Both the position numbers and the translations under genes were made by a program. From Clostridia bacterium (lineage in GTDB: Bacteria; Bacillota_A; Clostridia; Christensenellales; Aristaeellaceae): a stretch of 15,385 bases of DNA. Below the pieces are notes generated by a model. It searched no databases. It was not told where the DNA came from and worked only from the letters and a program-made list of their open reading frames with translations. The stretch lies in assembly GCA_017525805.1 (NCBI GenBank), contig JAFXSH010000114.1:1-15385 (forward strand), given 5' to 3'. Shown here piece after piece: positions 1 to 15,154 of this stretch. How positions within the stretch are numbered: the stretch's first letter is position 1; each line of letters starts with the position of its first letter.

Positions 1-441
1 GATGGCGATGCGCTGCTTCTGTCCGCCGGAAAGCTCGTCCGGGTAGTTCAGCGCCTTTTCAGCCAAACCCACTGTGCGCAGCAGCCGCATCCCTTCGTCA
101 TAGGCTTCCTGCTTGCTTTTTCCCAGCAAATCCATGGGCGCCAGCATGATGTTTTCGATGACGGTCAGATGCCCGAACAGGTTGAAGGATTGGAACACCA
201 TGCCCATCTTCTGCCGCACCTTGCCCAAATCGCATTTGGGATCGGTCACGTCGGTTCCGTCCACCCAGATATGGCCCTCCGTGGGCTTTTCCAGCAGGTT
301 GATGCAGCGCAGCAGCGTGCTTTTCCCCGTTCCGGAGGGGCCGATGACGGAAATCACGTCCCCGTCGTGGATTTCTACCGACACGTCTTTCAGGGGCGTC
401 ACGTTGGGATAAACTTTTTTCAGATGCTCGATCTTAATCAT
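1..441 (-). CDS. Polar amino-acid ABC transporter ATP-binding protein (GlnQ/HisP type), 3' part cut by window edge
   Basis: The 147 visible codons are the N-terminal half of an ABC ATPase that would power import by the permease encoded just upstream. Visible are an A-loop Tyr11, the Walker A motif GPSGTGKST at residues 34-42 (Lys40), the Q-loop in VFQSFNLF with Gln84, and the signature LSGGQKQR at 137-144. The phrases NLFGHLTVIENI and LLRCINLLEKP are typical of the polar amino-acid family (GlnQ, HisP, ArtP). Walker B, the D-loop and the switch His lie beyond the window. The ATG at 441-439 overlaps the TAA of the receptor-permease gene in an ATGATTAA arrangement (8 shared bases), so the two are translationally coupled and almost certainly form one transporter. 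Family assignment is firm; the substrate cannot be read from the ATPase. Confidence 0.95.
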   Translation of the reverse strand, partial: MIKIEHLKKVYPNVTPLKDVSVEIHDGDVISVIGPSGTGKSTLLRCINLLEKPTEGHIWVDGTDVTDPKCDLGKVRQKMGMVFQSFNLFGHLTVIENIMLAPMDLLGKSKQEAYDEGMRLLRTVGLAEKALNYPDELSGGQKQRIAI

Positions 442-3400
442 GGATATTCACCCCCTTGAGAATGTTTTCTGGCTTGCGCTTTTTGGGATTCATGCGAATC
501 TGGATCTTGCTGACCAGGAAGCACAGCAGCCCTTCCAGGATGAAATAGATCACCGTCACCGCGATCAGGGGGAAGAACGCTTCATACGTGCGGCTGCGCA
601 CGATGTCGCCCATCTTCGTCAGATCCTGCACGGCGATGTAGCCCACGATGGCCGTGGCCTTGATCAGGCCCACGATCTCGCCCTTATAGGCGGGCAGGAT
701 GTGCGGGATGGCCTGGGGCAGGATGATGCGGAAGAAGGTGCGCCGGTTGGCGTAGCCCAAAGCATATGCCGCTTCATACTGGCCCTGGTCGATGGCGCCA
801 ACGCCCATTTTCAGCAGCCCGAACACCGCCGCGCCGAAGGCGAGCGTAAACCCGATCACCGCCACGAAAATACCGCTGATGGCCACGGAACCGAAGATGA
901 TGTAATACAGGATCATGAGCAGCACCACCATGGGCATGCCCTGCACCAGCCACATGGAAAACCGGGTGGCGCCGTTGGCGACGATGTTCCCGTTCCGGCA
1001 GAGCATGAACACCAGGAAGCCCAGGGCTGTGCCAAACAGGATAGACAGGACAGTGATGAGCAGGGTGGTCAGCACGCCGTTCTCAAACAGCTCCCAGCGA
1101 TTTTCCCGGATGAATGTCTTATTGAAGCTGGCCACGATGCCGTCCCAGAAGGATTCCTGCTGGACAGCGGAGGACGCAGTCTGCTGTTCCTCCGTCAATA
1201 CAGCCGGCGCCGTGTCGCCGGAAAAATTCGGCTCAGAGGACAGCGCCGATTCCGCGCGTACCCCTACGGCAATGCCGCCGTAATAGTTGGGAGAGCTGAA
1301 CAGTACGCTTTCGGCCCGTTCCTCCGTAATGGTGATGCAAGAGGAAGCAAAATCGCACTTGCCGCTCTGCACAGATGGAAGGATACCGCCAAAATCCATG
1401 GGCATGATCTCTAAAGCGTAGCCGTATGCCTGGCAGAATCGGGCAGCTACGTCCACATCGTAGCCCACGATCTTATTATCCTTCATGTAGGTAAAGGGGA
1501 TCATGGACAAGTCAACCGCCATGCGCAGCGTGCCGTTGGTCGCGGGCAGACTTGCGAAGTCCATCACCGTGCGCTTTCCATCGTCTTTGCCGAACCAGAC
1601 GGCGTCGATTTCCTTCATGGTTCCGTCTGCCCACAGCTTTTCCAGAAATTCGCTGTATTGGCCGCACAGCGTCTGGCCCGCTTCCGTCTTGGGGAACACG
1701 GCGGCCAGGTTGCTTTCATCCAGATACTCGTCCAGGATCACCAGTTGCGGGTTTTCGATTTTCAGGAAGCGAAGGGTGGGTTCATCCATGCACCCGGCTT
1801 CCAGCTTCCCGGCATTCATCGCCGCCAGCACGTCGGTCACAGTGTTGAAATAATAAATTTGCGCGTCCGGCAGCCGCGCTTCGGCCAGCGCCCCGCAGAT
1901 GGTGCCCGTCTGCACGCCGATTCGGGCGTTTGCCAGATCGTCCAGCGAAGCGATGCCCGCGCTGGCCGTCTGCTGTGCGGATGCCGCTGCTTTACTCTTG
2001 AGAATCGCCATCACCGTGCCGCCGGTATAATAGGGATCGGAGAAGTAAACGCTTTCCTTCCGTTCCTCTGTGATGGTCAGCCCGGCGGCGGCAAAGTCCG
2101 CTTTCCCGGACTGAATGGCGGGCAGGATGCCATCAAACAGCATGGGAACCACTTTCAGTCCGTACCCGTTCGCTTCGCAGAACCGTGCGATCATGTCAAT
2201 TTCCAGGCCAACCACTTCGTCGCTCCGGTAATAGTTCATGGGAGCGTAGGCTCCTTCCGTCGCCAGGGTCAATACGCCGTTTGGCGCGGGGAAGGAGGCG
2301 TAATCCGTCACGGTCTTTTCGCTTTCCGGGCCGTCCGTCCATTTCTGGGTGATTGCTGTCAGTTCCCCGCTCTCCTTTACGTCCGCGAGCCAGGCGTTGA
2401 TTTCCGCAAGCAGCTTTTCTCCGGCTTCCGTTTTGGGCATGGCGATGCCGAAATCAAAATCGTCCATGCGGTCTTCCAGAACGGTAAGCTTATCGTTCTC
2501 CGCCGCCATCAGCCGGATCACCGGCTCGTCGCCCGGGAAAGCGTCGATCTTGTTGGCTTCCAGTGCTGCGGCCATATCGGGATAGGAATTGAAATAGCTG
2601 ATGGCAGCGTCCGGCAGCGTTTCCAGCACAATTTCGTCAAAAGTGGTACCGGTCTGTACGCCGATGCGCTTGCCGTTCAAATCCTGTAAGGAAGCATAGC
2701 CGGAAGCAGCCGAAGCGGTGGATGAAGCGTCCTTTTGCTTCAAAACCGCCGCCGTGTTCCCGCTGTAAAGGATCGGCATGCCAAACAGCACCATCTCCGC
2801 CCGTTCGTCGGTAATGGTGATACCGCAGGAAGCAAAATCACATTTTCCATTCTGAACGGATGCCAGCACCCCATCGAAGGCGGAATTGACGATTTTCAGC
2901 CGGTAGCCGTTTGCTTCGCAGAACCTGGCGGCAATATCCACGTCATACCCCACGATCCTGCCATCCTTCACGTAAGCACAGGGCATGAGGGTGGCGTCCA
3001 CCGCCATGGTCAGGGTACCGTTCACATCCGGCAGGGCTTCATAGTCCAGCACGGTTCTCAGGCTTTCGTCCTTTCCTAACCATACCTCCTGAAGCGCGTC
3101 CATCGTTCCGTCCGCCCACAGCTTTTGCACAAACGCATTGTATTCCTCGCAGAGCGCACGCCCCTTCTCGCTTTTGGTAAACATCGGAGCTAAGGAAATA
3201 CTGGAAAACTTTTCTGTCAGCACTTCCAGGTCGTCGTTTTCTATTTGCAGGTAGCGCAACATGATTTCATCCGATACGATGGCGTCTACCTTTCCGGCGC
3301 GCAGCATGGCCAGCTCATCCGCCATGTTGTTGGCATGGACGATGGTTGCGTCGGGCAAGCGCGCTTCCGCCTCCGTGGCGCAGGTGGTGCCGGTCAGTAC

Positions 3401-5020
3401 GCCGATGCGCTTGCCGTTCAAGGCGTCCAGGCCAGAAACCGTACTCTGCCCGGAAGGGTCGGCGCTTTGCGCTGTCTGGGCGGGCGCATCCGCTTTCCGC
3501 ACAGCCAGCACAATCCCGCCCTGATAGAAGGGTTCGGAAAAGCTGATGCTTTCCTTGCGTTCCTCGGTGATTGCCATGGAGGAGGCGCACATATCGTATT
3601 TGCCGCTGACCAGACCGGGCATACGGGCGGAAAAGTCCACGTCCGCGATGACCGGCGTGTAGCCAAAGCGGCGGCAGAACATCTCCACCAATTCAATGGA
3701 CAGGCCGACATACTGATTATCCTTCACATAGGAGAAAGGCACGTCGGTGGCAGTGGTCACGACGTTCAATTTGCCATTTTCGCCGGAGTATCCGTTCTTC
3801 AAGTCCACGACCTTTACTGCTTCGTCTTCGCCGAACCACTTATCGCCCAGCGCTTCCAGGGTGCCGTCGGCCTTGATTTCCGCCAGCATTTCATTGAACT
3901 GCCTCCGCAGCATATCCGGCCGCTGTCCGCTCTTGCCAAAACCGAAGGCGTATTCGTCGCTGACCAGTTTTTCGGGCAGATAGGTAATTTCCGGCACCTC
4001 GCCCACCAGGATGCGCAGCGCCGGTTCGTCGCCCAGGAAGCCGTCGATTTTCTGATTGATCAGAGCGGCGGCCACGTCGGTGTAGCTGTTATAGTAGAGG
4101 TATTCGCTGCTGGGAAAGAATTGCAGCGTGGGCGCTTCAAAGCTGGTGCCCGTCACGATGCCCATGCGCTTGACATCCATCGGAGAAGATACGGAGGTCT
4201 CCTCTTTTTCCGCCGTTTTCGCGGCAACATCCATTTTCCGCACAGCCAGCACGATACCGCCCTGATAATAGGGGTCGGAAAAATTGATGCTCTCCCTGCG
4301 TTCTTCCGTGATCGTCAGAGGCGCGGCGCACATATCATATTTTCCGGTGACGATGCCGGGGATTCGGGCCGCAACGTCCACATCCTCAATAGATGGGGTA
4401 TAGCCATACCTGCGGCAGAACATTTCCGTAAGTTCAATGGCGATGCCTGCCATTTTCCCATCCTTGATATAAGAAAAGGGGATGCTCGTGCAGCTGGTGA
4501 CCACGTTCAGCGTGCCGTTTTCGCCGCTGAATCCCGTCAGATCCACCGTTTTCACGGCCTCGTCGTCGCCGAACCACTTGTCATACAGGGCGTTCAGGGT
4601 GCCGTTCGTCATGATCTGCGACAGCATTTCATTGAACTGGCCCCTGATCCTGTCCGCCCGTTGGCTGTTCTTTCCAAAGCCGAAAGCGTAATCGTCCTGC
4701 GTGATTTTTTTCGACAGGTAAGTGATCTCCGGCACTTCCTTGCAAATCATGCGGATCACCGGCTCGTCGGCCAGAAAACCGTCGATCTTATTGCTGACCA
4801 GGGCGGTGACCACGTCGCTGTTGGTGCCGAAATACAGGTATTGGCTGTCCGGGAAGTATTGCAGCGTGGGCGCTTCAAAGCTGGTTCCCGTCACGATGCC
4901 CATCCGTTTGCCGTTCAAGTCTTCCCGGCTGGCGATCCAGCCGCCGGCGCTTTCCGCACAGGCCGACCCTAACCATAGCAGCAGGAACAGCAACAGGAAG
5001 CACAGAATTCTTTTTTTCAC
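434..5020 (-). CDS. Amino-acid ABC transporter: five tandem SBP_bac_3 receptor units fused to an HisM/GlnP-type permease
   Basis: This 1528-residue protein combines extracellular solute receptors and the membrane channel of a polar amino-acid importer. Residues 1-22 form a signal peptide or first membrane anchor ending in ACA. Five receptor units follow at about 36-262, 284-509, 535-764, 781-1010 and 1029-1256. Each starts with lobe-2 sequence (KRxGxxTGT, an Asp-Glu pair in the D...DEP stretch, then KWFG or similar) and ends with lobe-1 sequence (FSYxKDG, G...E/D...FC, ITxER, FSDPYY). All five keep the lobe-1 Arg of ITxER and the lobe-2 TGT that normally hold the amino-acid carboxylate. The permease domain covers about 1305-1510 with the coupling motif EAAYALGY...LPQAIPHILP at 1416-1443. 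Translation starts at a GTG preceded by AAAGGG. Fusion of receptor and permease is known (lactococcal GlnP has two receptors); five lobe-inverted units is unusual. The ligand may differ per unit. Confidence 0.93.
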   Translation of the reverse strand: MKKRILCFLLLFLLLWLGSACAESAGGWIASREDLNGKRMGIVTGTSFEAPTLQYFPDSQYLYFGTNSDVVTALVSNKIDGFLADEPVIRMICKEVPEITYLSKKITQDDYAFGFGKNSQRADRIRGQFNEMLSQIMTNGTLNALYDKWFGDDEAVKTVDLTGFSGENGTLNVVTSCTSIPFSYIKDGKMAGIAIELTEMFCRRYGYTPSIEDVDVAARIPGIVTGKYDMCAAPLTITEERRESINFSDPYYQGGIVLAVRKMDVAAKTAEKEETSVSSPMDVKRMGIVTGTSFEAPTLQFFPSSEYLYYNSYTDVAAALINQKIDGFLGDEPALRILVGEVPEITYLPEKLVSDEYAFGFGKSGQRPDMLRRQFNEMLAEIKADGTLEALGDKWFGEDEAVKVVDLKNGYSGENGKLNVVTTATDVPFSYVKDNQYVGLSIELVEMFCRRFGYTPVIADVDFSARMPGLVSGKYDMCASSMAITEERKESISFSEPFYQGGIVLAVRKADAPAQTAQSADPSGQSTVSGLDALNGKRIGVLTGTTCATEAEARLPDATIVHANNMADELAMLRAGKVDAIVSDEIMLRYLQIENDDLEVLTEKFSSISLAPMFTKSEKGRALCEEYNAFVQKLWADGTMDALQEVWLGKDESLRTVLDYEALPDVNGTLTMAVDATLMPCAYVKDGRIVGYDVDIAARFCEANGYRLKIVNSAFDGVLASVQNGKCDFASCGITITDERAEMVLFGMPILYSGNTAAVLKQKDASSTASAASGYASLQDLNGKRIGVQTGTTFDEIVLETLPDAAISYFNSYPDMAAALEANKIDAFPGDEPVIRLMAAENDKLTVLEDRMDDFDFGIAMPKTEAGEKLLAEINAWLADVKESGELTAITQKWTDGPESEKTVTDYASFPAPNGVLTLATEGAYAPMNYYRSDEVVGLEIDMIARFCEANGYGLKVVPMLFDGILPAIQSGKADFAAAGLTITEERKESVYFSDPYYTGGTVMAILKSKAAASAQQTASAGIASLDDLANARIGVQTGTICGALAEARLPDAQIYYFNTVTDVLAAMNAGKLEAGCMDEPTLRFLKIENPQLVILDEYLDESNLAAVFPKTEAGQTLCGQYSEFLEKLWADGTMKEIDAVWFGKDDGKRTVMDFASLPATNGTLRMAVDLSMIPFTYMKDNKIVGYDVDVAARFCQAYGYALEIMPMDFGGILPSVQSGKCDFASSCITITEERAESVLFSSPNYYGGIAVGVRAESALSSEPNFSGDTAPAVLTEEQQTASSAVQQESFWDGIVASFNKTFIRENRWELFENGVLTTLLITVLSILFGTALGFLVFMLCRNGNIVANGATRFSMWLVQGMPMVVLLMILYYIIFGSVAISGIFVAVIGFTLAFGAAVFGLLKMGVGAIDQGQYEAAYALGYANRRTFFRIILPQAIPHILPAYKGEIVGLIKATAIVGYIAVQDLTKMGDIVRSRTYEAFFPLIAVTVIYFILEGLLCFLVSKIQIRMNPKKRKPENILKGVNIHD
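1253..4915 (-). repeat. Five-fold intragenic repeat of the receptor unit
   Basis: Units of about 680-690 bases lie at 4235-4915, 3494-4171, 2729-3418, 1991-2680 and 1253-1936. They are separated by short variable linkers rich in Ala, Ser, Thr and Gln. Units 1 and 2 are the closest pair: at 4861-4910 and about 4123-4172 the DNA is nearly identical over roughly 40 bases. Units 3 and 5 share an AEARLPDA phrase that the others lack. The repeats are diverged enough that the gene should be stable, except perhaps between units 1 and 2. Confidence 0.9.
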
Positions 5021-6235: not shown

Positions 6236-8173
6236 TCACTTGGCGGCAGCGTTTGCGTCCTTTTCCACGCCGGGAGCGTAGATGGTGGCAAAATCATCCC
6301 GCATGGAGATGGTGCCTATGCCCTGCGCATTGTAGCCCTCGATCTTGGCTTGGGCGCTTTCATAATCGCCCCATTCCCGCGCTTCGTCGTCCGCCAGGAC
6401 GATGTAGGAAAGGGCGGGATAGGGATTATCAGTTACCACGTATTCGCACATGGCCACATCCCCGGAGCTGTTGCCGAAAGCCAGCACCGGCTGCTGGCCG
6501 ATCTCCCGCACAATGGCGTCCACCTTGGACATTTTGGCGTTTTCGCCGTAATAGGTGCCGTCGAACACCACCTTGTCCGTGCTTTTGAAGGTGTAATCCC
6601 CGTCGGCGGTATCGCCCTGGCCCGTGGCGGTGTAGCCGTATTCCGTGCCGATGACGTAAGCGGGGGCAATGTCCAGCGTATCCTTCACGATGGCACGGAC
6701 GATGTTGCGCTCGGTTGCGGTGACGATGTAGACGGTGAAATCATTGGCCCTCAGATAGTTCACCAGCTCCACCATGGGCTGATAGAACGCTTCGCCCCGG
6801 GTCATGCCCGTGAAGCCCTCCGCTTCGGAATCCATGAAGCCCTTCACGTACTCCCCAAGCTCGGCGGGGGTCATGCCCGCGTAGGCAATTGCGGCGGCGG
6901 CAGCCTGCCGGGTGCTGATCCCCGAGGGCTTTTCCTGCCATTTGGTGTCCACGATCTCCTGGGCCACGGCCACCACGTCCTCAGTGGGCGTGTAATCGGG
7001 ATTGTTAAGGGCATAGTCCACAAATACCATGTATTCAAAGCACCGGGGATAGGTTTCGCACATGAGGGTACCGTCTAAATCGAACACGGCGATACGATCC
7101 TCTACGGGGATGTAGCTTTCTCTGGTTTCATCCGTAATGGCGGCGATATAGTCCATGAGCGCGGCTTTTGGTTCCGCGCCCGCGCTCCAGGAAGGCAGCT
7201 TCAAATAAGCTTCGTCGACGATGTATTGGAAAATGGACAGGGCTGTTTTATCGTCCATATAGTCGTCCTTGTTGGCGGCATCGTCTAAGTTTTTCACCAA
7301 AGCGGCTTCGGGATGGAATTGCAGGCCCACGGCAAAGGTCTTATCGGTTCTTTCCAGGGCTTCAATCATGGAAACGCCGTTCGTTTCCGTGTAACCGGTC
7401 ACGGTGAGCCGGGTATGATCCACATTTTTTACCGCCTGGTGATGCCAGGAGGGGCAGCCGGTAAGCGTATCCGTACCAACGATGTCATAAAGTCGGGAAC
7501 CCTTCGCCACCCGCACGGTATGAGGCGCGTAATCCCGGTAGCTTTCGGGGGTGGCCTTCTGGTTGCGGTGGGTATAGTCATACGCGATGCCCTGATTCTC
7601 AAACCAGGTGGGAATGTCCTGAATGACCTCTCCGCCGGAGATGACGCCCAGCATCTGCGCGCCACGGCAGAAGCCCATGAGGGGAATATCGCAGTCCAGG
7701 CAGTAGGCCATGGTCAGATAGTCCGATACGTCCCGCTCGGCGTTGTAGTCGATTTCCGCCTCGATGCCGTGCCATTCTTCGGGGGTATAGTACAGGGTGG
7801 GGCTGATGTCCTCGCCTCCGGTAAACAGCACGATGCTCACGTTCCCCACGGCTTCCGCCGCGTTGGAGCCATGCCAGGTATTGCATTTCACATACTTGGC
7901 GCTGATCTCGTCCAGCATGCCGATCTCTGTTTTACCGCTGACCAGGCGGCCTTCCGCGTCGTAGCATAAATCAGCAGAAAACACCTGATCCAGCATGACC
8001 CATTCGCCGCCCGCCGCTTCCACGGAGCGGCATACGTTGGTAAAGAACTCCGAATCCGTGTCGGCCCGCCATGCGATGCCGACCACGGTTTTTTGAGACG
8101 CCTCAGCCAGCGAAACGCCGCAGACGATTACCAGCAGAACAAATCCAAGCAGCAGCGAAAAAAACTTTTTCAT
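6236..8173 (-). CDS. Exported fusion: peptidase C26 / class I amidotransferase-like hydrolase plus HAD phosphatase
   Basis: The 645-residue product starts with a Sec signal peptide (cleavage likely after SLA at 23). Residues 28-320 are a peptidase C26 (PuuD-like gamma-glutamyl hydrolase) domain: the LFTGGEDISP oxyanion strand at about 116-125, nucleophile elbow GFCRGAQ with Cys169, and QFHPEA with His287 and Glu289 complete the triad. Family members cleave gamma-glutamyl amide bonds, as in gamma-glutamyl-GABA. Residues 358-605 are a HAD phosphatase: FDLDGT with Asp365 and Asp367, VTATER at 484-489, a Lys near 550, and GNSSGD with Asp572. All key residues of both domains are present, so both are probably active outside the membrane. 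AGGAGG lies 9 bases before the ATG. The first 93 residues match the neighbouring acid phosphatase at about 77 positions. The substrate is unknown; a molecule carrying both a gamma-glutamyl and a phosphate group is only a speculation. Confidence 0.9.
   Translation of the reverse strand: MKKFFSLLLGFVLLVIVCGVSLAEASQKTVVGIAWRADTDSEFFTNVCRSVEAAGGEWVMLDQVFSADLCYDAEGRLVSGKTEIGMLDEISAKYVKCNTWHGSNAAEAVGNVSIVLFTGGEDISPTLYYTPEEWHGIEAEIDYNAERDVSDYLTMAYCLDCDIPLMGFCRGAQMLGVISGGEVIQDIPTWFENQGIAYDYTHRNQKATPESYRDYAPHTVRVAKGSRLYDIVGTDTLTGCPSWHHQAVKNVDHTRLTVTGYTETNGVSMIEALERTDKTFAVGLQFHPEAALVKNLDDAANKDDYMDDKTALSIFQYIVDEAYLKLPSWSAGAEPKAALMDYIAAITDETRESYIPVEDRIAVFDLDGTLMCETYPRCFEYMVFVDYALNNPDYTPTEDVVAVAQEIVDTKWQEKPSGISTRQAAAAAIAYAGMTPAELGEYVKGFMDSEAEGFTGMTRGEAFYQPMVELVNYLRANDFTVYIVTATERNIVRAIVKDTLDIAPAYVIGTEYGYTATGQGDTADGDYTFKSTDKVVFDGTYYGENAKMSKVDAIVREIGQQPVLAFGNSSGDVAMCEYVVTDNPYPALSYIVLADDEAREWGDYESAQAKIEGYNAQGIGTISMRDDFATIYAPGVEKDANAAAK
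7895..8173 (-). repeat. Paralogous 5' segment, copy 1
   Basis: These 93 codons of the C26-HAD gene align without gaps to 10042-10320 of the acid phosphatase gene. About 77 of 93 residues are identical, and similarity extends through the ribosome binding site. It marks a gene duplication within the locus. Confidence 0.9.
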
Positions 8174-8736: not shown

Positions 8737-10320
8737 CTATGCAGCGTCTTCCATCGGTTCTTCGGCGGCGTATTGCTCCACCAGCGCGTCATAGGCGGAA
8801 ATGACGTCGTCCAACAGCTTGAGCAGATCGGCTTCGGCGATCCTGCCGTCTTCGTCCATGCCCTCAAAATGCAGCGGGTAAATCACGGGCGGGTTCTCCA
8901 GCGTCAGCTGCTCCATGGAGCGAAGCTGCGCCGTGCTCTGATAAACCAGGCTGATTTTGTAATACGCTTCGTTCTCCGCCGTGACCCAGCGCTCGAATAC
9001 CAGCTTCACACCGATGGGTGTATGCTGCTCCACCGTTTCCGGCAGCAGGTAATCCCCATAATTCAGCGCGGCCAGCACACTGGCGACGTTAGCGTCATGC
9101 CCGCATAGGAAAGAGAATTTACGTCCTTCCGCGCTCAGTTCGGCGCGGATTTCTTCCAGCAGCGGGTGCGCCACGTTGACTGAAACCAGGGGCGAGCAGA
9201 ACAGCATGTCGCTGTAGGTATCCACGATGGAATGGATCAGCCGCCAGTCCTCGTCCGTCAGGTCATGGCCGAAAGCGGCCTTCTGTTTGTCCGGTTCCTC
9301 GTAGTATTGCAGGATCAAAGCGTCCGCTACGCTGGTGGCGTTTTTGATGGGGCCGGTCATTTTCGGTTCTTTGCCCTTTTCCATGGTGAGGACGGTTTCG
9401 CCCGCTTTAAGATCGCCGTACTTTCCCGCTTGATAGGCTTCGCTCTGTTCAATGTCAGCCGTGTCCATCAGCAGGGAAATGGCTTCGTTCAGGCTGGACA
9501 GAATCCCGTCCAGCCCGGCTTCGCCGCCCTTTTCGGCGATTTGGGTGATGGCATCCTGAATATATTCCTCCGTAACGAAGTTCAGGGACGGTTCAAAAAC
9601 GGGGTCCATGGTATCATAGGTTATGTGGGTTTCGATGGGCACTGCCGACACAGGCAAAAGACCTGCGGAAAAGTGCCGCGCGGTCGCAATGGTGCGCTGC
9701 TTGGCGTTGGCGTAGAAGCGGACGGCTCCTTCCTCCGGCTGATAATTCTCGGGGAAAAGGTTCTCTTGTTCCAGCCACAGCCGGAAATACTGGCCCATCA
9801 GGGTTTCCAGCACCGCGCCGCGCAGGGAAAGCTCGCTGGGATTGGACGTCCACTGGAACCATTCGTGGGGCGTAATGTCGCCAAGCAGCGAACCGCTGCC
9901 GGAAAGGGGCGAACGGATGTTGTGACGGCTCAGGATCACCACGCGATCCAGGGTATCATCCGATTGTTCAGCACGCTTGGCTTCCGCGGCCTTGCTCCAG
10001 GAAGGCAACGTCATCCAGGATTTTTCGACGATATATTGGAATTTAGCGGCGGTTTCGTCCAGCATCCCGATCTCTGTTTTGCCGCTGGTCAGGCTTCCTG
10101 CTTCATCGTAGTACAGGTCAGAGGAAAGCACCTGATCCAGCATCACCCATTCGCCGCCAGCCGCTTCCACGGCGCGGCACACATTGGTAAAAAACTCCGA
10201 ATCCGAATCGGCTCGCCAGGCGATGCCGACCACGGTTTTTTGAGACTCCTCAGCCAGCGAAACGCCGCAGACGCTCACCAGCAGAACCAATCCCAACAGC
10301 AGCGAAAAAATCCTTTTCAT
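8737..10320 (-). CDS. Exported Agp-like histidine acid phosphatase with a vestigial C26 N-terminal segment
   Basis: The 527-residue product begins with a Sec signal peptide (cut likely after SLA) and about 90 residues nearly identical to the N-terminus of the C26-HAD protein. The C26 domain then stops: at residue 93/94 the sequence jumps to FQYIV...LPSWS, which in the sister protein is the far end of the C26 domain at residue 315. About 221 residues, including the catalytic Cys, are missing in frame. Residues about 125-520 are a histidine acid phosphatase of the glucose-1-phosphatase (Agp) type: SRHNIRSPL with nucleophile His133, Arg132 and Arg136, TMDPxF, and GHDANVAS with His408 and Asp409 as proton donor. 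The RHN (not RHG) form and the tail with TPIG...LVYQS.AQLR match Agp. Family members release phosphate from sugar phosphates or phytate. The start at 10320 is set by AAAGGAGG; the upstream in-frame ATG at 10362 has none. Confidence 0.92.
   Translation of the reverse strand: MKRIFSLLLGLVLLVSVCGVSLAEESQKTVVGIAWRADSDSEFFTNVCRAVEAAGGEWVMLDQVLSSDLYYDEAGSLTSGKTEIGMLDETAAKFQYIVEKSWMTLPSWSKAAEAKRAEQSDDTLDRVVILSRHNIRSPLSGSGSLLGDITPHEWFQWTSNPSELSLRGAVLETLMGQYFRLWLEQENLFPENYQPEEGAVRFYANAKQRTIATARHFSAGLLPVSAVPIETHITYDTMDPVFEPSLNFVTEEYIQDAITQIAEKGGEAGLDGILSSLNEAISLLMDTADIEQSEAYQAGKYGDLKAGETVLTMEKGKEPKMTGPIKNATSVADALILQYYEEPDKQKAAFGHDLTDEDWRLIHSIVDTYSDMLFCSPLVSVNVAHPLLEEIRAELSAEGRKFSFLCGHDANVASVLAALNYGDYLLPETVEQHTPIGVKLVFERWVTAENEAYYKISLVYQSTAQLRSMEQLTLENPPVIYPLHFEGMDEDGRIAEADLLKLLDDVISAYDALVEQYAAEEPMEDAA
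10042..10320 (-). repeat. Paralogous 5' segment, copy 2
   Basis: This is the counterpart of 7895-8173. Alignment ends sharply at 10041/10042, where the acid phosphatase gene continues with the homologue of the C26 C-terminal tail, marking the edge of the internal deletion. Confidence 0.9.
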
Positions 10321-10329
10321 TTTCCTGTT

Positions 10330-10337
10330 CCTCCTTT
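10330..10337 (-). promoter_or_regulatory. Ribosome binding site fixing the acid phosphatase start
   Basis: AAAGGAGG on the minus strand lies 9 bases before the ATG at 10320, which begins the signal peptide MKRIFSLLLG. The in-frame ATG 42 bases upstream would add a basic leader and lacks a site. Confidence 0.8.
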
Positions 10338-10389
10338 TGTTGAGCAGTCGCTTCTGTTTCATTGGATGCAGCCTGGCATGGTATCTATT

Positions 10390-11339: not shown

Positions 11340-12271
11340 CTATTCCTTTTTTCTGAACCAGTTTGCCAGAATCGCGCCGGAGATGTTGTGCCATACAGAG
11401 AAAACAGCTCCGGGAACCGTAGCCATCGCCAGGGACGGGAAAGCCATTTCGGCCAGAGATGTTGCGAGGCCGGAGTTCTGCATGCCGATCTCAATGGAGA
11501 GCGCTTTGGTCTGCGCCATGTCCAGCTTCAGCAGTTTCCCGAGTCCGAATCCACAGGCGTAGCCCAGCAGATTATGCAGCGCCACCACCGCCATGATCTC
11601 TGCTCCGGTTGACAGGATCCGTTCTGCGTTATGCGACACCACCGCCATTACGATCAGGCAAATGGCCACAACAGAAATCAGCGGCAGCGCTTTTATTACC
11701 CGCTGGGTGTATTTGCCGAAAAAGCGATTGAGCAGCAGTCCCAGAGCGATCGGCGCGATCACCACCTGCACAATGGACAGGAACATACTCCACACGTCCA
11801 CCGCCACGCTGGCGTGAAGGAGGATATAGGTGATGGCCGGCGTCAGGATGGGGCCAGCAGCGTATTCACGCTGGTCATGCCCACAGAAAGCGGTACATCT
11901 CCACCAGACAAATAGGTGATCACGTTGCTGGCGGTGTCGCCGGGGCAGGCTCCCACCAGGATCACCTCCGCAAGCAGCGCGGTATCCAGATGAAAGGCCT
12001 TTCCCAGCGCGAAGGCCAGCAGCGGCATGACGGTAAACTGGCTGACGCACCCTATCAGGATGTTCCGGGGATGGCGGAACACATAACGGAAGTCCTCTAT
12101 TTTCAGCGTCAGCCCCATGCCGAACATGACCACCATCAGCAGCGGGTTGATCCAGGCTGTCTGCACCCACAGCGCGGCTGTTGGCAGAAACAGGGATACA
12201 GCCGTCAAAGCAAGAACGAGTATCGCCATGTATTGTCCAATGATCGCGCTGATAGATTCTTTTGCTTTCAT
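11340..12271 (-). pseudogene. Bile acid:sodium symporter (BASS) family transporter, disrupted by a frameshift
   Basis: The two halves are in different frames. From the ATG at 12271 the first about 140 codons encode the N-terminal membrane segments and the BASS motif GACPGDTASNVITYLSGGD...SVNTLLAP, then stop at a TGA within GCCCCATCCTGA. The other frame continues without loss as ILTPAITYILL... to the TAG at 11340, including the second signature EIGMQNSGLATSLA. Adding one C to the four-C run at 11850-11853 restores about 311 residues, the normal family length, with about nine to ten membrane segments. BASS proteins use sodium to import bile acids, pantoate, pyruvate or related organic anions. 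It lies 110 bases after the asparaginase gene. Whether the break is a real mutation, a phase-variable tract or an assembly error cannot be decided here. AGGTGA 5 bases before the ATG sets the start. Confidence 0.88.
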
Positions 12272-12276
12272 TGAAA

Positions 12277-12282
12277 TCACCT
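12277..12282 (-). promoter_or_regulatory. Ribosome binding site for the symporter gene
   Basis: AGGTGA sits 5 bases before the ATG at 12271. It favours this start over the in-frame GTG at 12280, which overlaps the site. Confidence 0.6.
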
Positions 12283-12381
12283 GATCGATTGTTATTCGCA
12301 GCGCCGGCTTTTTCTGACAAGCAACAGGATAATCAACCGGAAGCTGTCAATCAAACGGTTTCGTGATCGTTATAAGCCTCG

Positions 12382-13428
12382 TCAGTATTGCAGGAACAGA
12401 TTTTCCAGATATTCCTGGCTTGTGTCCCCGGTCAGCGCCAATCGCAGCAGGATGGCTGCTTTTTGAGGAGACAGGTTGTTTGCCGCCACGGTATTGTCGC
12501 AAAGCAGATTGTCTTTGGTGATCACGCCGTCGTCAATGCGGGAGGAGATAACCACCGGAATGGAAAGCTCCCGGATAATCTCGATCCACTTTTCGCTGAA
12601 TTCTCCCGCGCCGGCGCCGGCAATCACCAGGCCGTCTGCGTGTTCAGCGGCAAAACGCAGAAGCTCCGGGTCTGCGTCTACGGAGAAATAAAGAATCGAA
12701 ACTTTGGGAAGGGCCGATAAATCCGATACGTCAAACTCGGCTTCAGCTGTATGCCTCTTTGACGGGGTTTCGTACAGAAAAACCGTTCCGTCGCGTACAA
12801 CGCCGATGGCCCCCATTTCACCCGCTGAAATCGCCATGACGCTGTAGGTGCTGGTTTTGGTCATCGTCCTGGCCGTGTAAATCCTGTCGGAAAAAACAAT
12901 CAGGACGCCATGGCCGACCGCTTCATCGGACGCGGCGACGCAAACAGCCTCATACAGATTCATCGGCCCGTCTGCCGAAATGGATGTGGCGGGGCGCATG
13001 GAGCCTGTCAGCACCACAGGCTTATCCGTCTTGACTGTCAGGTTCAGGAAATAGGCCGTTTCTTCCATGGTGTCCGTTCCATGGGTGATGACGAAGCCTG
13101 CTACGTCGGGGGCCTTTGCCATTTCGTTGATGGTGTTCACCAGCGTCAGCCAGATTTCAGCCGTGATGTCGTCTGAATTGACGTTGCAGATCTGGATCGC
13201 TTCGATGTCCGCCACCTGCTCCAATTCAGGAACGGCAGCCAATAATTGTTCCGCCGTCAGGGTTCCCGGCTTATAACCGGCGGCTTTTCCCGCTTCGCCG
13301 ACGCCGGCGATGGTTCCGCCCGTAGCCAGGACCACGATCTTTTTCCGATTGGACGCTTCCGCAAGGCAGGAAGAGGCCGCGGCAGTCAGGAAAATCAGGG
13401 TCAGCAGCAGCGCGAGGATTTTTTTCAT
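12382..13428 (-). CDS. ansB: Exported type II L-asparaginase
   Basis: The 348-residue enzyme hydrolyses L-asparagine to L-aspartate and ammonia. After a signal sequence of about 23 residues (cleavage likely after CLA; Cys21 is a poor lipobox match) comes the first active-site motif LATGGTIAG with nucleophile Thr39, Tyr52 in the flexible loop, NSDD at 84-87, the second motif ITHGTDTMEET with Thr118 and Asp119, GSMRP at 142-146, and Lys191 in MTKTST. The order and spacing follow E. coli AnsB closely through to the NLSPQKAAILLRLALT tail, so it is full length and probably an active tetramer. The start at 13428 follows AGGAGG; the longer frame to 13545 would run into the upstream gene and hide the signal peptide. 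It lies 31 bases downstream of the decarboxylase homologue, clearly in one operon with it, and feeds that enzyme its substrate. Confidence 0.95.
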   Translation of the reverse strand: MKKILALLLTLIFLTAAASSCLAEASNRKKIVVLATGGTIAGVGEAGKAAGYKPGTLTAEQLLAAVPELEQVADIEAIQICNVNSDDITAEIWLTLVNTINEMAKAPDVAGFVITHGTDTMEETAYFLNLTVKTDKPVVLTGSMRPATSISADGPMNLYEAVCVAASDEAVGHGVLIVFSDRIYTARTMTKTSTYSVMAISAGEMGAIGVVRDGTVFLYETPSKRHTAEAEFDVSDLSALPKVSILYFSVDADPELLRFAAEHADGLVIAGAGAGEFSEKWIEIIRELSIPVVISSRIDDGVITKDNLLCDNTVAANNLSPQKAAILLRLALTGDTSQEYLENLFLQY

Positions 13429-13436
13429 TGTGATTG

Positions 13437-13442
13437 CCTCCT
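13437..13442 (-). promoter_or_regulatory. Ribosome binding site fixing the asparaginase start
   Basis: AGGAGG lies 8 bases before the ATG at 13428, inside the 31-base gap after the decarboxylase stop codon. It rules out the longer frame that overlaps the upstream gene. Confidence 0.8.
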
Positions 13443-13459
13443 TTTGTATGTTGATCGCT

Positions 13460-15154
13460 TTAAGCCGCGTCCGAGACGGCTTCAGTTTCGTATTCAGTGT
13501 AGTATTCGTCCAGCAGTTCAAACAGCCGGGACGCGATTTCCACATAGTCTTCGGCGTACAGGTTTGCCAGGGAGATGCGCACGGTTCCTTCCGAAGCGTT
13601 GAAGCCGGGGCCGTACATCAGCACCACGCCTTTCTTCCCGGCCAGGTCGTTCAGGAAGTCGATTTCAGTTCGGCTGTCTTTCAGCCAATCGGCAAAATCT
13701 TCGCCGTACCGGGCAGAAGCGATGGCCAGCACGTCCACCAGCGTGTAATACCGGGCGTTCTGCGCGCTGTCGTCAACGGGCAGGCCCAGGGCGTTCATCA
13801 GCGCCGTATACCGGGCGCGCACCGTATCGTTTGCCAGCTTGATATAGGGGTCTTCCGCTTCGTAAATCAAATGGCTCAGCGCAAGCATGTCCATGAACAC
13901 CTGGCTCGGGGTGCTCAGGCCGCTGGTGTGGTAAAGGCCGATGGAACGGCTGTCCGCCACTACGCGGTCCAGGAAGGGCATTTCATCCGGCTCGGAGGTC
14001 ACGATAGCGTATTCGCTCCGCAGGAACGCTTTGTCCTCCTCGGGCAGTTCCCGCAGCAACCGGTCGCATACGTTGTCTTTGTTCATGGCGATCATGCCCA
14101 CGCGCCAGCCCGTCGCGCCATACAGCTTGGAGTAAGAATAAACCAGGATGGTATTGTACGGCAGCACGGCGTACACCGTCTTAAAATCCTGGGCGAAAGT
14201 ACCGTACACGTCGTCGGTTAAGATGATGAGGTCGGGATTCTTTTCCGCCACAAGCTCCAGCCTTTTCAGCGTTTTTTCCGACAGGGCATGGGAGGCGGGA
14301 TTGGAGGGGTTCACCAGGAAAAAGGCTTTCACGGCGGGGTCTTCCAGCTTGACCAATTCGGCTTCGGGGATATCCCATCCGTCTTCCTCCGTGCTGCTCA
14401 CGTCGATGGACACCAGGCCGTAATCCTTCACGGACGGGATCTGCATGTAGGGGGTGAAGATGGGCGTGCCGATGGCGATCTGATCCCCGGCTTTCAGCAG
14501 CTTATTGTGGCTGAGCGCCTCGAAGATGTACACCATGGCCGCGCTGCCGCCTTCCGTGGGAAAAATCTGCGTTTCCGCCGAAAGGTCCTCGCCGTTGTAC
14601 AGCGTGGATTGCAGATAAGCGTTCTGAATGGCTTCCGTGCAGGGCAGGCACCGGCTGGGGGAAGGATAGTAGTCGCCAATGACGGCGTCTCCCAGTTCCT
14701 TGAGCAGGGTGTCCTTGTCCAGGCCCAGGGTGTTCACGCAGTAATCCACAGCGGCAATCAGGAAAGCGTCGGTCGGATCGTCCGGGTTCATGGTCGCGTC
14801 AAAGCGTTCGCCCACGCCCTCCAGTTTCCCGTGCCCCGCCATGCTGCCCTGGCTCATATCCAGCTCGCATTCGCCGATGGCGAAATTCATGAACCGGGTG
14901 AAGGCGTAGCGCGTTTGGGCGTTGATCCAGTTGGGATTGCCCCGCCCCGCGTCCAGCACGGAGTAGCCTGCTTCGTTGGTCTTTGCCAGTTCCCGCTGCA
15001 TGGCGGTGATTTCAAACGCGCCCAGTTCCTTTTCCAGCTGCGCTTCCGCTTCCTGGTGCAATGAGATCACATTCCCGCCCTCGGCAAAGGCGGCGGGGAC
15101 TGCCATGCACAGGACGAGATAAATGATGATGGCGCGCAAGATTCTGTTTTTCAT
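13460..15154 (-). CDS. aspD: Aspartate 4-decarboxylase/aspartate aminotransferase homologue (fold type I PLP enzyme) with a Sec signal peptide
   Basis: The 564-residue product matches the bifunctional aspartate transaminase/beta-decarboxylase family, which turns L-aspartate into L-alanine and CO2. Family marks are RGNPNW at 71-76, the GxxAGHGKLEGVGERF region at 103-118, NPSNPAS at 282-288, TDDVYGTF at 313-320, the PLP-lysine motif SYSKLYGATGWRVG with Lys343, and Arg526 in TVRIS for the substrate carboxylate. Length after the leader (about 540) equals the family norm. The oddity is residues 1-24: a basic start, a long hydrophobic run and AFA|E, a textbook signal peptidase I site without a twin-arginine motif. 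Known members are cytosolic. The ATG at 15154 has AAGGAAGG in front, so the leader is genuinely translated. Neighbouring exported asparaginase suggests Asn to Asp to Ala outside the membrane. How PLP would be loaded there is unclear. Confidence 0.92.
   Translation of the reverse strand: MKNRILRAIIIYLVLCMAVPAAFAEGGNVISLHQEAEAQLEKELGAFEITAMQRELAKTNEAGYSVLDAGRGNPNWINAQTRYAFTRFMNFAIGECELDMSQGSMAGHGKLEGVGERFDATMNPDDPTDAFLIAAVDYCVNTLGLDKDTLLKELGDAVIGDYYPSPSRCLPCTEAIQNAYLQSTLYNGEDLSAETQIFPTEGGSAAMVYIFEALSHNKLLKAGDQIAIGTPIFTPYMQIPSVKDYGLVSIDVSSTEEDGWDIPEAELVKLEDPAVKAFFLVNPSNPASHALSEKTLKRLELVAEKNPDLIILTDDVYGTFAQDFKTVYAVLPYNTILVYSYSKLYGATGWRVGMIAMNKDNVCDRLLRELPEEDKAFLRSEYAIVTSEPDEMPFLDRVVADSRSIGLYHTSGLSTPSQVFMDMLALSHLIYEAEDPYIKLANDTVRARYTALMNALGLPVDDSAQNARYYTLVDVLAIASARYGEDFADWLKDSRTEIDFLNDLAGKKGVVLMYGPGFNASEGTVRISLANLYAEDYVEIASRLFELLDEYYTEYETEAVSDAA

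Follow-up and report, generated by a model that had tools for sequence, protein, structure and literature searches.

A gene in a 15,385-nucleotide stretch of Clostridia bacterium DNA (contig JAFXSH010000114.1 of assembly GCA_017525805.1; the whole stretch is called the window here) raises the question of how a string of receptors folds when the two lobes of each come in inverted order. The gene encodes a permease chain preceded by five units of the substrate-binding protein (SBP) family SBP_bac_3, each with lobe 2 (L2) ahead of lobe 1 (L1). An initial annotation had proposed that each unit folds as a circular permutant or, alternatively, that lobe 1 of each unit pairs with lobe 2 of the next, leaving the end lobes to close a ring. 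Our answer, to which we give a probability of roughly 0.87, is that the protein is a subunit of an amino-acid-type ATP-binding cassette (ABC) importer with five circularly permuted SBP_bac_3 receptors on its permease chain, opened at the first hinge crossing. The features concerned are the following.

434..5020 (-), five-receptor permease gene, 1528 residues, GTG start
4949..5020 (-), signal peptide by eye, about residues 1-24, adjoining the first lobe 2
4568..4915 (-), unit 1 lobe 2 with C-terminal helices, residues 36-151
4232..4516 (-), unit 1 lobe 1, residues 169-263
4178..4231 (-), linker from unit 1 lobe 1 to unit 2 lobe 2
3830..4177 (-), unit 2 lobe 2, residues 282-397
3491..3775 (-), unit 2 lobe 1, residues 416-510
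3419..3490 (-), linker from unit 2 to unit 3
3074..3418 (-), unit 3 lobe 2, residues 535-649
2735..3019 (-), unit 3 lobe 1, residues 668-762
2678..2734 (-), linker from unit 3 to unit 4; predicted local distance difference test (pLDDT) <50 at model residues 245-252 (764-771)
2333..2677 (-), unit 4 lobe 2, residues 782-896
1994..2278 (-), unit 4 lobe 1, residues 915-1009
1934..1993 (-), linker from unit 4 to unit 5; pLDDT <50 at model residues 495-501 (1014-1020)
1589..1933 (-), unit 5 lobe 2, residues 1030-1144
1250..1534 (-), unit 5 lobe 1, residues 1163-1257
1..441 (-), GlnQ-type ATPase gene, its start overlapping the 3' end of the permease gene, its 3' part beyond the window edge

Five lobe 2 and five lobe 1 segments alternate in this protein, as read from a series of motifs that recurs five times: TGT at residues 44, 290, 543, 790 and 1038, followed in each case by [K/V]W, an NG.L start and T[ED]ER. 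Hidden Markov models (HMMs) of the lobes give the same reading, (L2-L1)x5, with the first lobe 2 beginning at residue 36-37. Pfam model SBP_bac_3 (PF00497) scores 503.9 bits over five stretches, and BPD_transp_1 scores 58.9 bits at residues 1334-1495 (Pfam cut-off 26.4 for each); this permease domain is of the polar-amino-acid type, and its cognate GlnQ-like ATPase adjoins. The top SBP_bac_3 stretch, 171-398, straddles lobe 1 of unit 1 and lobe 2 of unit 2, so automatic annotation hides the swapped order. Motifs, lobe HMMs, Pfam and the order found family-wide all confirm the five tandem, lobe-inverted units that had been proposed ahead of the permease. The GlnPQ type is marked by at least two receptors on the permease chain; here there are five, and the ordinary lobe 1-lobe 2 order within a receptor does not occur (the order is read from sequence, the pairing of lobe 2 with lobe 1 from models).

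Two residues, the T[ED]ER Arg and the DE(P/I) Asp, are kept in 5 of 5 units, in agreement with the earlier statement that all five retain the carboxylate-binding Arg and TGT. By analogy with GlnBP, we take these residues to hold the carboxylate and amino groups of the ligand. Their retention fits the possibility that all five units of this protein may bind ligands. The closest unit pairs are the same for both lobes, 1 with 2 (lobe 1 68%, lobe 2 64%) and 3 with 5 (58%, 49%), which points to lobe 2-lobe 1 as the evolving module. A missing first lobe 1 upstream was considered and ruled out: the chain here goes from the signal peptide straight into lobe 2, and most relatives have their first lobe 2 starting at about residue 30-50.

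The order recurs through a family for which we found no name of its own, and it is therefore not a chance arrangement. A search with the whole protein gave 600 matches, of which the best 120 were taken (the top one being the window protein itself), and 121 sequences were parsed with the lobe HMMs, P0001 and its identical copy P0002 both being counted. Within this set 115 of 121 are complete alternating L2-L1 units, 116 open with lobe 2 (among them P0107, with an extra partial lobe 2 in front), five begin inside lobe 1 at residue 1 and so look cut off, and lobe 1 comes last in all 121. Unit numbers in the 115 regular members are three (13 proteins), four (43), five (33), six (13), seven (10) and eight (3). 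Two proteins, P0071 and P0110, have lobe 2 from residue 2 and may be cut; in P0020 and P0025 the tail beyond the last lobe 1 is too short for a permease. Source names, where present, include metagenome-assembled genomes (MAGs) of Clostridia, Firmicutes, Synergistaceae and Anaerolineaceae. A second search, with the last unit plus permease, returned 4590 matches; from the best 120, 120 sequences including the query piece were parsed, and 113 read L2-L1-L2-L1, a few without a visible signal peptide.

Loci L013-L018 belong to uncultured Clostridiales or Clostridia, with goat reticulum or roe deer omasum named for three. By our own reading of matches at E <=1e-40, most others being the permease alone, a fused permuted receptor-permease occurs in 7 of 196 genomes of one class (G001, G051, G088, G091, G105, G114 and G138). 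Ligand residues are less uniform across the family, with the Arg in 759 of 801 units, the Asp in 645 and both in 621; both are found in every unit of 155 of 239 proteins, while the Asp is absent from 5 of 8 units of P0010 and 4 of 6 of P0046. Because of these losses, amino-acid binding by all units cannot be claimed family-wide. Locus L013 carries a six-unit array in one frame with a single stop between lobe 2 and lobe 1 (frame 1, 945 and 1845), which may reflect a broken gene, recoding or an assembly error.

The two kinds of crossing differ in regularity. By lobe HMMs on the family set, the L2-to-L1 joint measures 16-24 residues (median 18, standard deviation 0.9, n=570), nearly constant, in line with the conserved joint of the initial annotation, and Asp, Glu and Pro are its most abundant residues. 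The L1-to-L2 linker measures 11-52 (median 21, standard deviation 4.9, n=454). Linkers had been described as variable and made of Ala, Ser and Gln; variable length and richness in Ala (15.6%) and Ser (11.9%) hold, but Gln, at 5.8%, ranks below Asp, Glu and Thr. Ordinary SBPs at the loci analysed, measured with the same models, have an L1-to-L2 hinge of 10-14 residues (n=19). A constant joint, a variable linker and a short ordinary hinge together suggest that the ordinary hinge crossing became the loose linker, and the ordinary free ends the fixed joint. Read from sequence, the order, the constant joint, the variable linkers, the ligand residues intact in five units and the neighbouring ATPase form the basis of the permutant reading; the pairing of lobes within a unit is predicted from models.

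In AlphaFold models the lobes pair within units, the unit-to-unit linkers are disordered and the L2-L1 joints are ordered, which is how the structure prediction recommended at the outset turned out. The models of unit 5 and of a natural one-unit protein (L019) align in chain order with OpuAC at 4.2-4.4 Å over nearly the whole chain, with 11-14% identity in the structure alignments, and both have the lobe 2-first order of OpuAC; the match in sequence order is model-based and carries a pseudo-symmetry caveat from 3mpk. For the one-unit model the OpuAC match surfaced solely in the second comparison (VIA): with Foldseek alone, permeases, phosphoribosyltransferases and split SBP matches rank high and OpuAC is absent from the best 50. 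Nor is OpuAC named in the best 60 of 199 sequence matches. Entry 7ahh also turned up in the structure comparison; OpuA has its receptor on the permease chain.

Natural controls come from shorter proteins. One lobe 2 and one lobe 1 are fused to a permease in eight proteins (L002, L019, L024, L046, L049, L050, L051 and L052), and free proteins of about 260 residues, lipoprotein-like by eye, consist of L2-L1 only (L027, L028, L030-L033 and L035, chosen because of a separate permease gene). A search with such free proteins finds this type in 51 of 120 among the matches listed. With a single lobe 2 and a single lobe 1, such chains offer no adjacent unit to pair with. The lobe 2-lobe 1 order, for which a database check had been advised, is thus common to arrays, one-unit fusions and free proteins.

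One-unit proteins could conceivably form lobe-swapped dimers, and it is improbable, though worth weighing, that units of the arrays are permuted with their lobes exchanged between protomers, making the array a mesh and not beads. A single chain crossing per unit could ease such swapping, and swapped elements are described for circular-permuted ribose-binding protein constructs (PMC10601554); the OpuAC-like unit, however, is found in models of monomers.

Ordinary pairing across linkers, in which lobe 1 of unit n would close with the lobe 2 that opens unit n+1, the end lobes forming a ring within the chain or between protomers, we hold to be very improbable. Chain connectivity permits it, equal lobe counts in regular arrays would leave no lobe over in a closed ring, and the shortest linkers (11 residues) overlap the ordinary hinge (10-14). 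Against this, ordinary SBPs superpose on lobe 1 plus the next lobe 2 of the model no better than at 15-18 Å, the linkers show disorder and vary in length, and there are natural one-unit fusions and free proteins of just two lobes. Co-variation points the same way; it was computed on 562 triples, each made up of a lobe 2, its lobe 1 and the lobe 2 that follows. Lobe 1 distances correlate at 0.87 with the lobe 2 of the same unit and at 0.24 with the next lobe 2 (0.77 and 0.08 for distant pairs only); lobe 2 against next lobe 2 gives 0.27. Corrected mutual information for the top 20 is 0.216 within the unit and 0.077 with the next lobe 2, where five within-protein shuffles give 0.067-0.076. Module duplication alone could raise the own-unit value, which is partly confounded; the next lobe 2 at shuffle level is the more telling half. 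The ring proposed as an alternative in the initial annotation thus finds no support. That the array is an artefact of assembly or gene calling over repeats can be set aside as negligible: relatives come mostly from metagenome assemblies and near ones differ in unit number (L017 has two), yet relatives lie on contigs of up to 356 kb and a two-unit array occurs in the one-contig genome G091.

Predicted structures, one-unit fusions, free permuted proteins, and same-unit lobe identities and co-variation therefore support the prediction that each unit is a self-contained circular permutant, its lobes pairing within the unit, as first proposed. Each unit would begin with lobe 2, make a single crossing to the C-terminal helices and reach lobe 1 by way of the joint, about 18 residues long, which would place both unit ends at the hinge. 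Flexible linkers would string the units hinge to hinge, the last leading to the permease. Each unit would trap a ligand, probably amino-acid-like, between its own two lobes, and the units may dock in turn on their common permease, much as those of GlnPQ do in smaller number. The permease is probably a homodimer working with the adjoining GlnQ-type ATPase, since a single permease gene is seen and GlnPQ is built this way; ten receptors per dimer is then a fair inference. Any advantage of hinge tethering would likewise be inferential.

Among known systems, GlnPQ of Lactococcus lactis has two tandem receptors on a homodimeric amino-acid permease, with flexible linkers and a separate ATPase (PMC8025302). 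It shares with the window protein the placing of tandem receptors on an amino-acid-type permease. In GlnPQ, however, the linker connects the final helix of one receptor with the opening strand of the following one (PMC8025302), which is the ordinary order, and its chain has two receptors against five in the window protein and up to eight in relatives. PMC2395249 groups OpuAC with ProX, molybdate-binding proteins and CysB as one circular-permutation family. This glycine-betaine-binding protein has the chain order of the window units and differs in its ligand and in being a single receptor of low identity. TpMglB-2 of Treponema pallidum (proposed Type Ic), a natural circularly permuted ABC binding protein, still binds its sugar and closes on it (PMC4990184); unlike the window units it has a Type I sugar-binding fold and is a single lipoprotein. 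Ordinary SBP_bac_3 proteins (GlnH, ArtJ, AncQR) share the sequence family of the window units and differ in lobe order.

The match between a free permuted relative and AncQR falls into two segments, residues 164-261 on 6-104 and 28-149 on 108-232. Among the best 60 of 94 PDB matches of a free permuted protein, no single receptor was matched from end to end, as a solved permuted SBP_bac_3 would be. The highest-ranking matches are two-piece; one match to 6h30, a two-receptor GlnPQ construct, covers 31-254 and spans the first into the second receptor. Searches of open-licence full texts yielded no permuted SBP_bac_3, no array of more than two receptors and no permuted amino-acid array of variable number. 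The earlier statement that no such system was known thus stands for the amino-acid array within those texts, and gives way for permutation as such, since permuted OpuAC and TpMglB-2 are described. Permuted binding proteins and permease-tethered tandem receptors are each known; no description of the two combined in SBP_bac_3, with one to eight receptors to a string, came to light in those texts, and the combination appears new. The family unites these two known rarities, and its free, one-unit and many-unit members allow experiments on how permutation and a hinge tether affect a transport receptor.

Relatives with three lobes bear on how the order arose. Among the matches listed as P0242-P0361, 55 of 120 are L2-L1-L2 and 12 are L1-L2-L1, with 2 more carrying a partial lobe. 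The joint of the L2-L1-L2 type (56 proteins) has 17 residues (17-19), and its second crossing, at 12 (7-19), has the length of an ordinary hinge; of the 12 L1-L2-L1 proteins, ten have a first crossing of 11-12 residues and two have one of 17. In the L2-L1-L2 type, the first lobe 2 averages 66.7% identity to permuted lobe 2 versus 58.8% to ordinary, and the second 48.1% to ordinary versus 39.1% to permuted (25 random pairs each, standard deviations 9-11). These crossing lengths and kinships are what permutation by duplication predicts. The three-lobed proteins resemble intermediates of that process, and one lobe may serve two partners.

A second natural permutation of SBP_bac_3, cut inside lobe 2, occurs in four genomes (L082, L084, L085 and L086, open reading frames (ORFs) of 269-301 residues), one of which is a single 2.97-Mb contig. 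Its order is the C-terminal half of lobe 2, lobe 1, then the N-terminal half of lobe 2, the halves complementing each other at about profile position 62; L082 is 77.4% identical to the ordinary SBP L069 over 217 residues, in two swapped pieces. A 397-residue ORF, L088 (G111), shows another kind of partial duplication, an ordinary L1-L2 protein to which a further, incomplete lobe 2 has been added. A wider search of 291 genomes, 207 with a match, had orders read by query range, with G150 and G223 left out as unclear. The hinge-cut order was found in at least 15 genomes (one case fused to a permease) and the lobe 2-cut order in at least 19; HMM parsing covered 12 genomes of the former group and 4 of the latter. 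No whole L2-L1-L2 frame is among the matches listed, so that type rests on metagenome contigs (up to 32 kb).

We tentatively suggest, at somewhat less than even odds, that Clostridia re-permute amino-acid-binding proteins by partial duplication, with three orders coexisting and working three-lobed intermediates, the arrays being one outcome in which the hinge tether frees the lobes and lets units shuffle. If so, one lobe in L2-L1-L2 or L1-L2-L1 proteins would close on either of two partners, and strings of one to eight receptors would be gained, lost and shuffled modularly on one permease. The three-lobed relatives and the permuted and ordinary pair at 77% would offer living material for the origin of circular permutations, and this evolutionary side story may be the larger find.

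Close relatives document changes in unit number. Locus L017 matches the window in the ATPase (96.6% over 146 residues), the permease (95.8% over 240) and a phytase-like neighbour (81% over 399); it has just two units, corresponding to window units 3 and 4 (93.2% over 500 residues), behind a first-lobe-2 stub. Locus L015 has three units and a signal peptide similar to that of the window protein. From these counts, which come from single MAG assemblies, units seem to be gained and lost as modules. A quick tree of 91 rows, with long branches and support from the Shimodaira-Hasegawa-like approximate likelihood ratio test (SH-aLRT) only, groups the first units of P0010, P0027, P0120, L020 and L023 (support 94) and the last units of P0027, P0222 and L020 (support 100), and many middle units cluster by protein. 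Free permuted proteins are interspersed with ordinary ones at two or more positions; 29 of 40 array units and 5 one-unit fusions share one side of a branch with support 87, and 11 array units fall elsewhere. The tree does not establish one common origin for the permuted forms, and we do not assume one.

Partner ATPases carry a C-terminal extension of about 120 residues (L017 8390-9484, L019 2924-4009 and other ATPase genes). Four of eight extensions weakly match HATPase_c_2 (best E 0.0045), and none has a PDB match up to E 1; the extension is perhaps a decayed kinase or anti-sigma-like ATP-binding domain. At L052 609-3359 (-) a one-unit permuted receptor, permease and ATPase form a single 916-residue protein, and a gene similar to that of the window's phytase-like protein lies nearby.

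Other window genes include an aspartate 4-decarboxylase, 13460-15154 (-), and a type II asparaginase, 12382-13545 (-), both with signal-peptide-like starts by eye, that of the asparaginase at an internal ATG; a secreted pyridoxal phosphate (PLP)-type aspartate decarboxylase would be unusual. Together with the peptidase C26 protein described below, these genes and their apparent signal peptides suggest, without proof, transport of amino acids freed outside the cell. The gene at 11340-12320 (-) matches just the C-terminal half of the PanS profile and ORF 11843-12280 resembles the N-terminal half by eye; a PanS/BASS-type transporter seems split over two frames, by a frameshift or a sequencing error. 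A phytase-like protein, 8737-10362 (-), has its first 94 or so residues 82% identical to the start of a peptidase C26/HAD protein, 6236-8173 (-), as if two genes had fused. The product of L052 4101-5423 (-) is 51% identical over 396 residues to this phytase-like protein.

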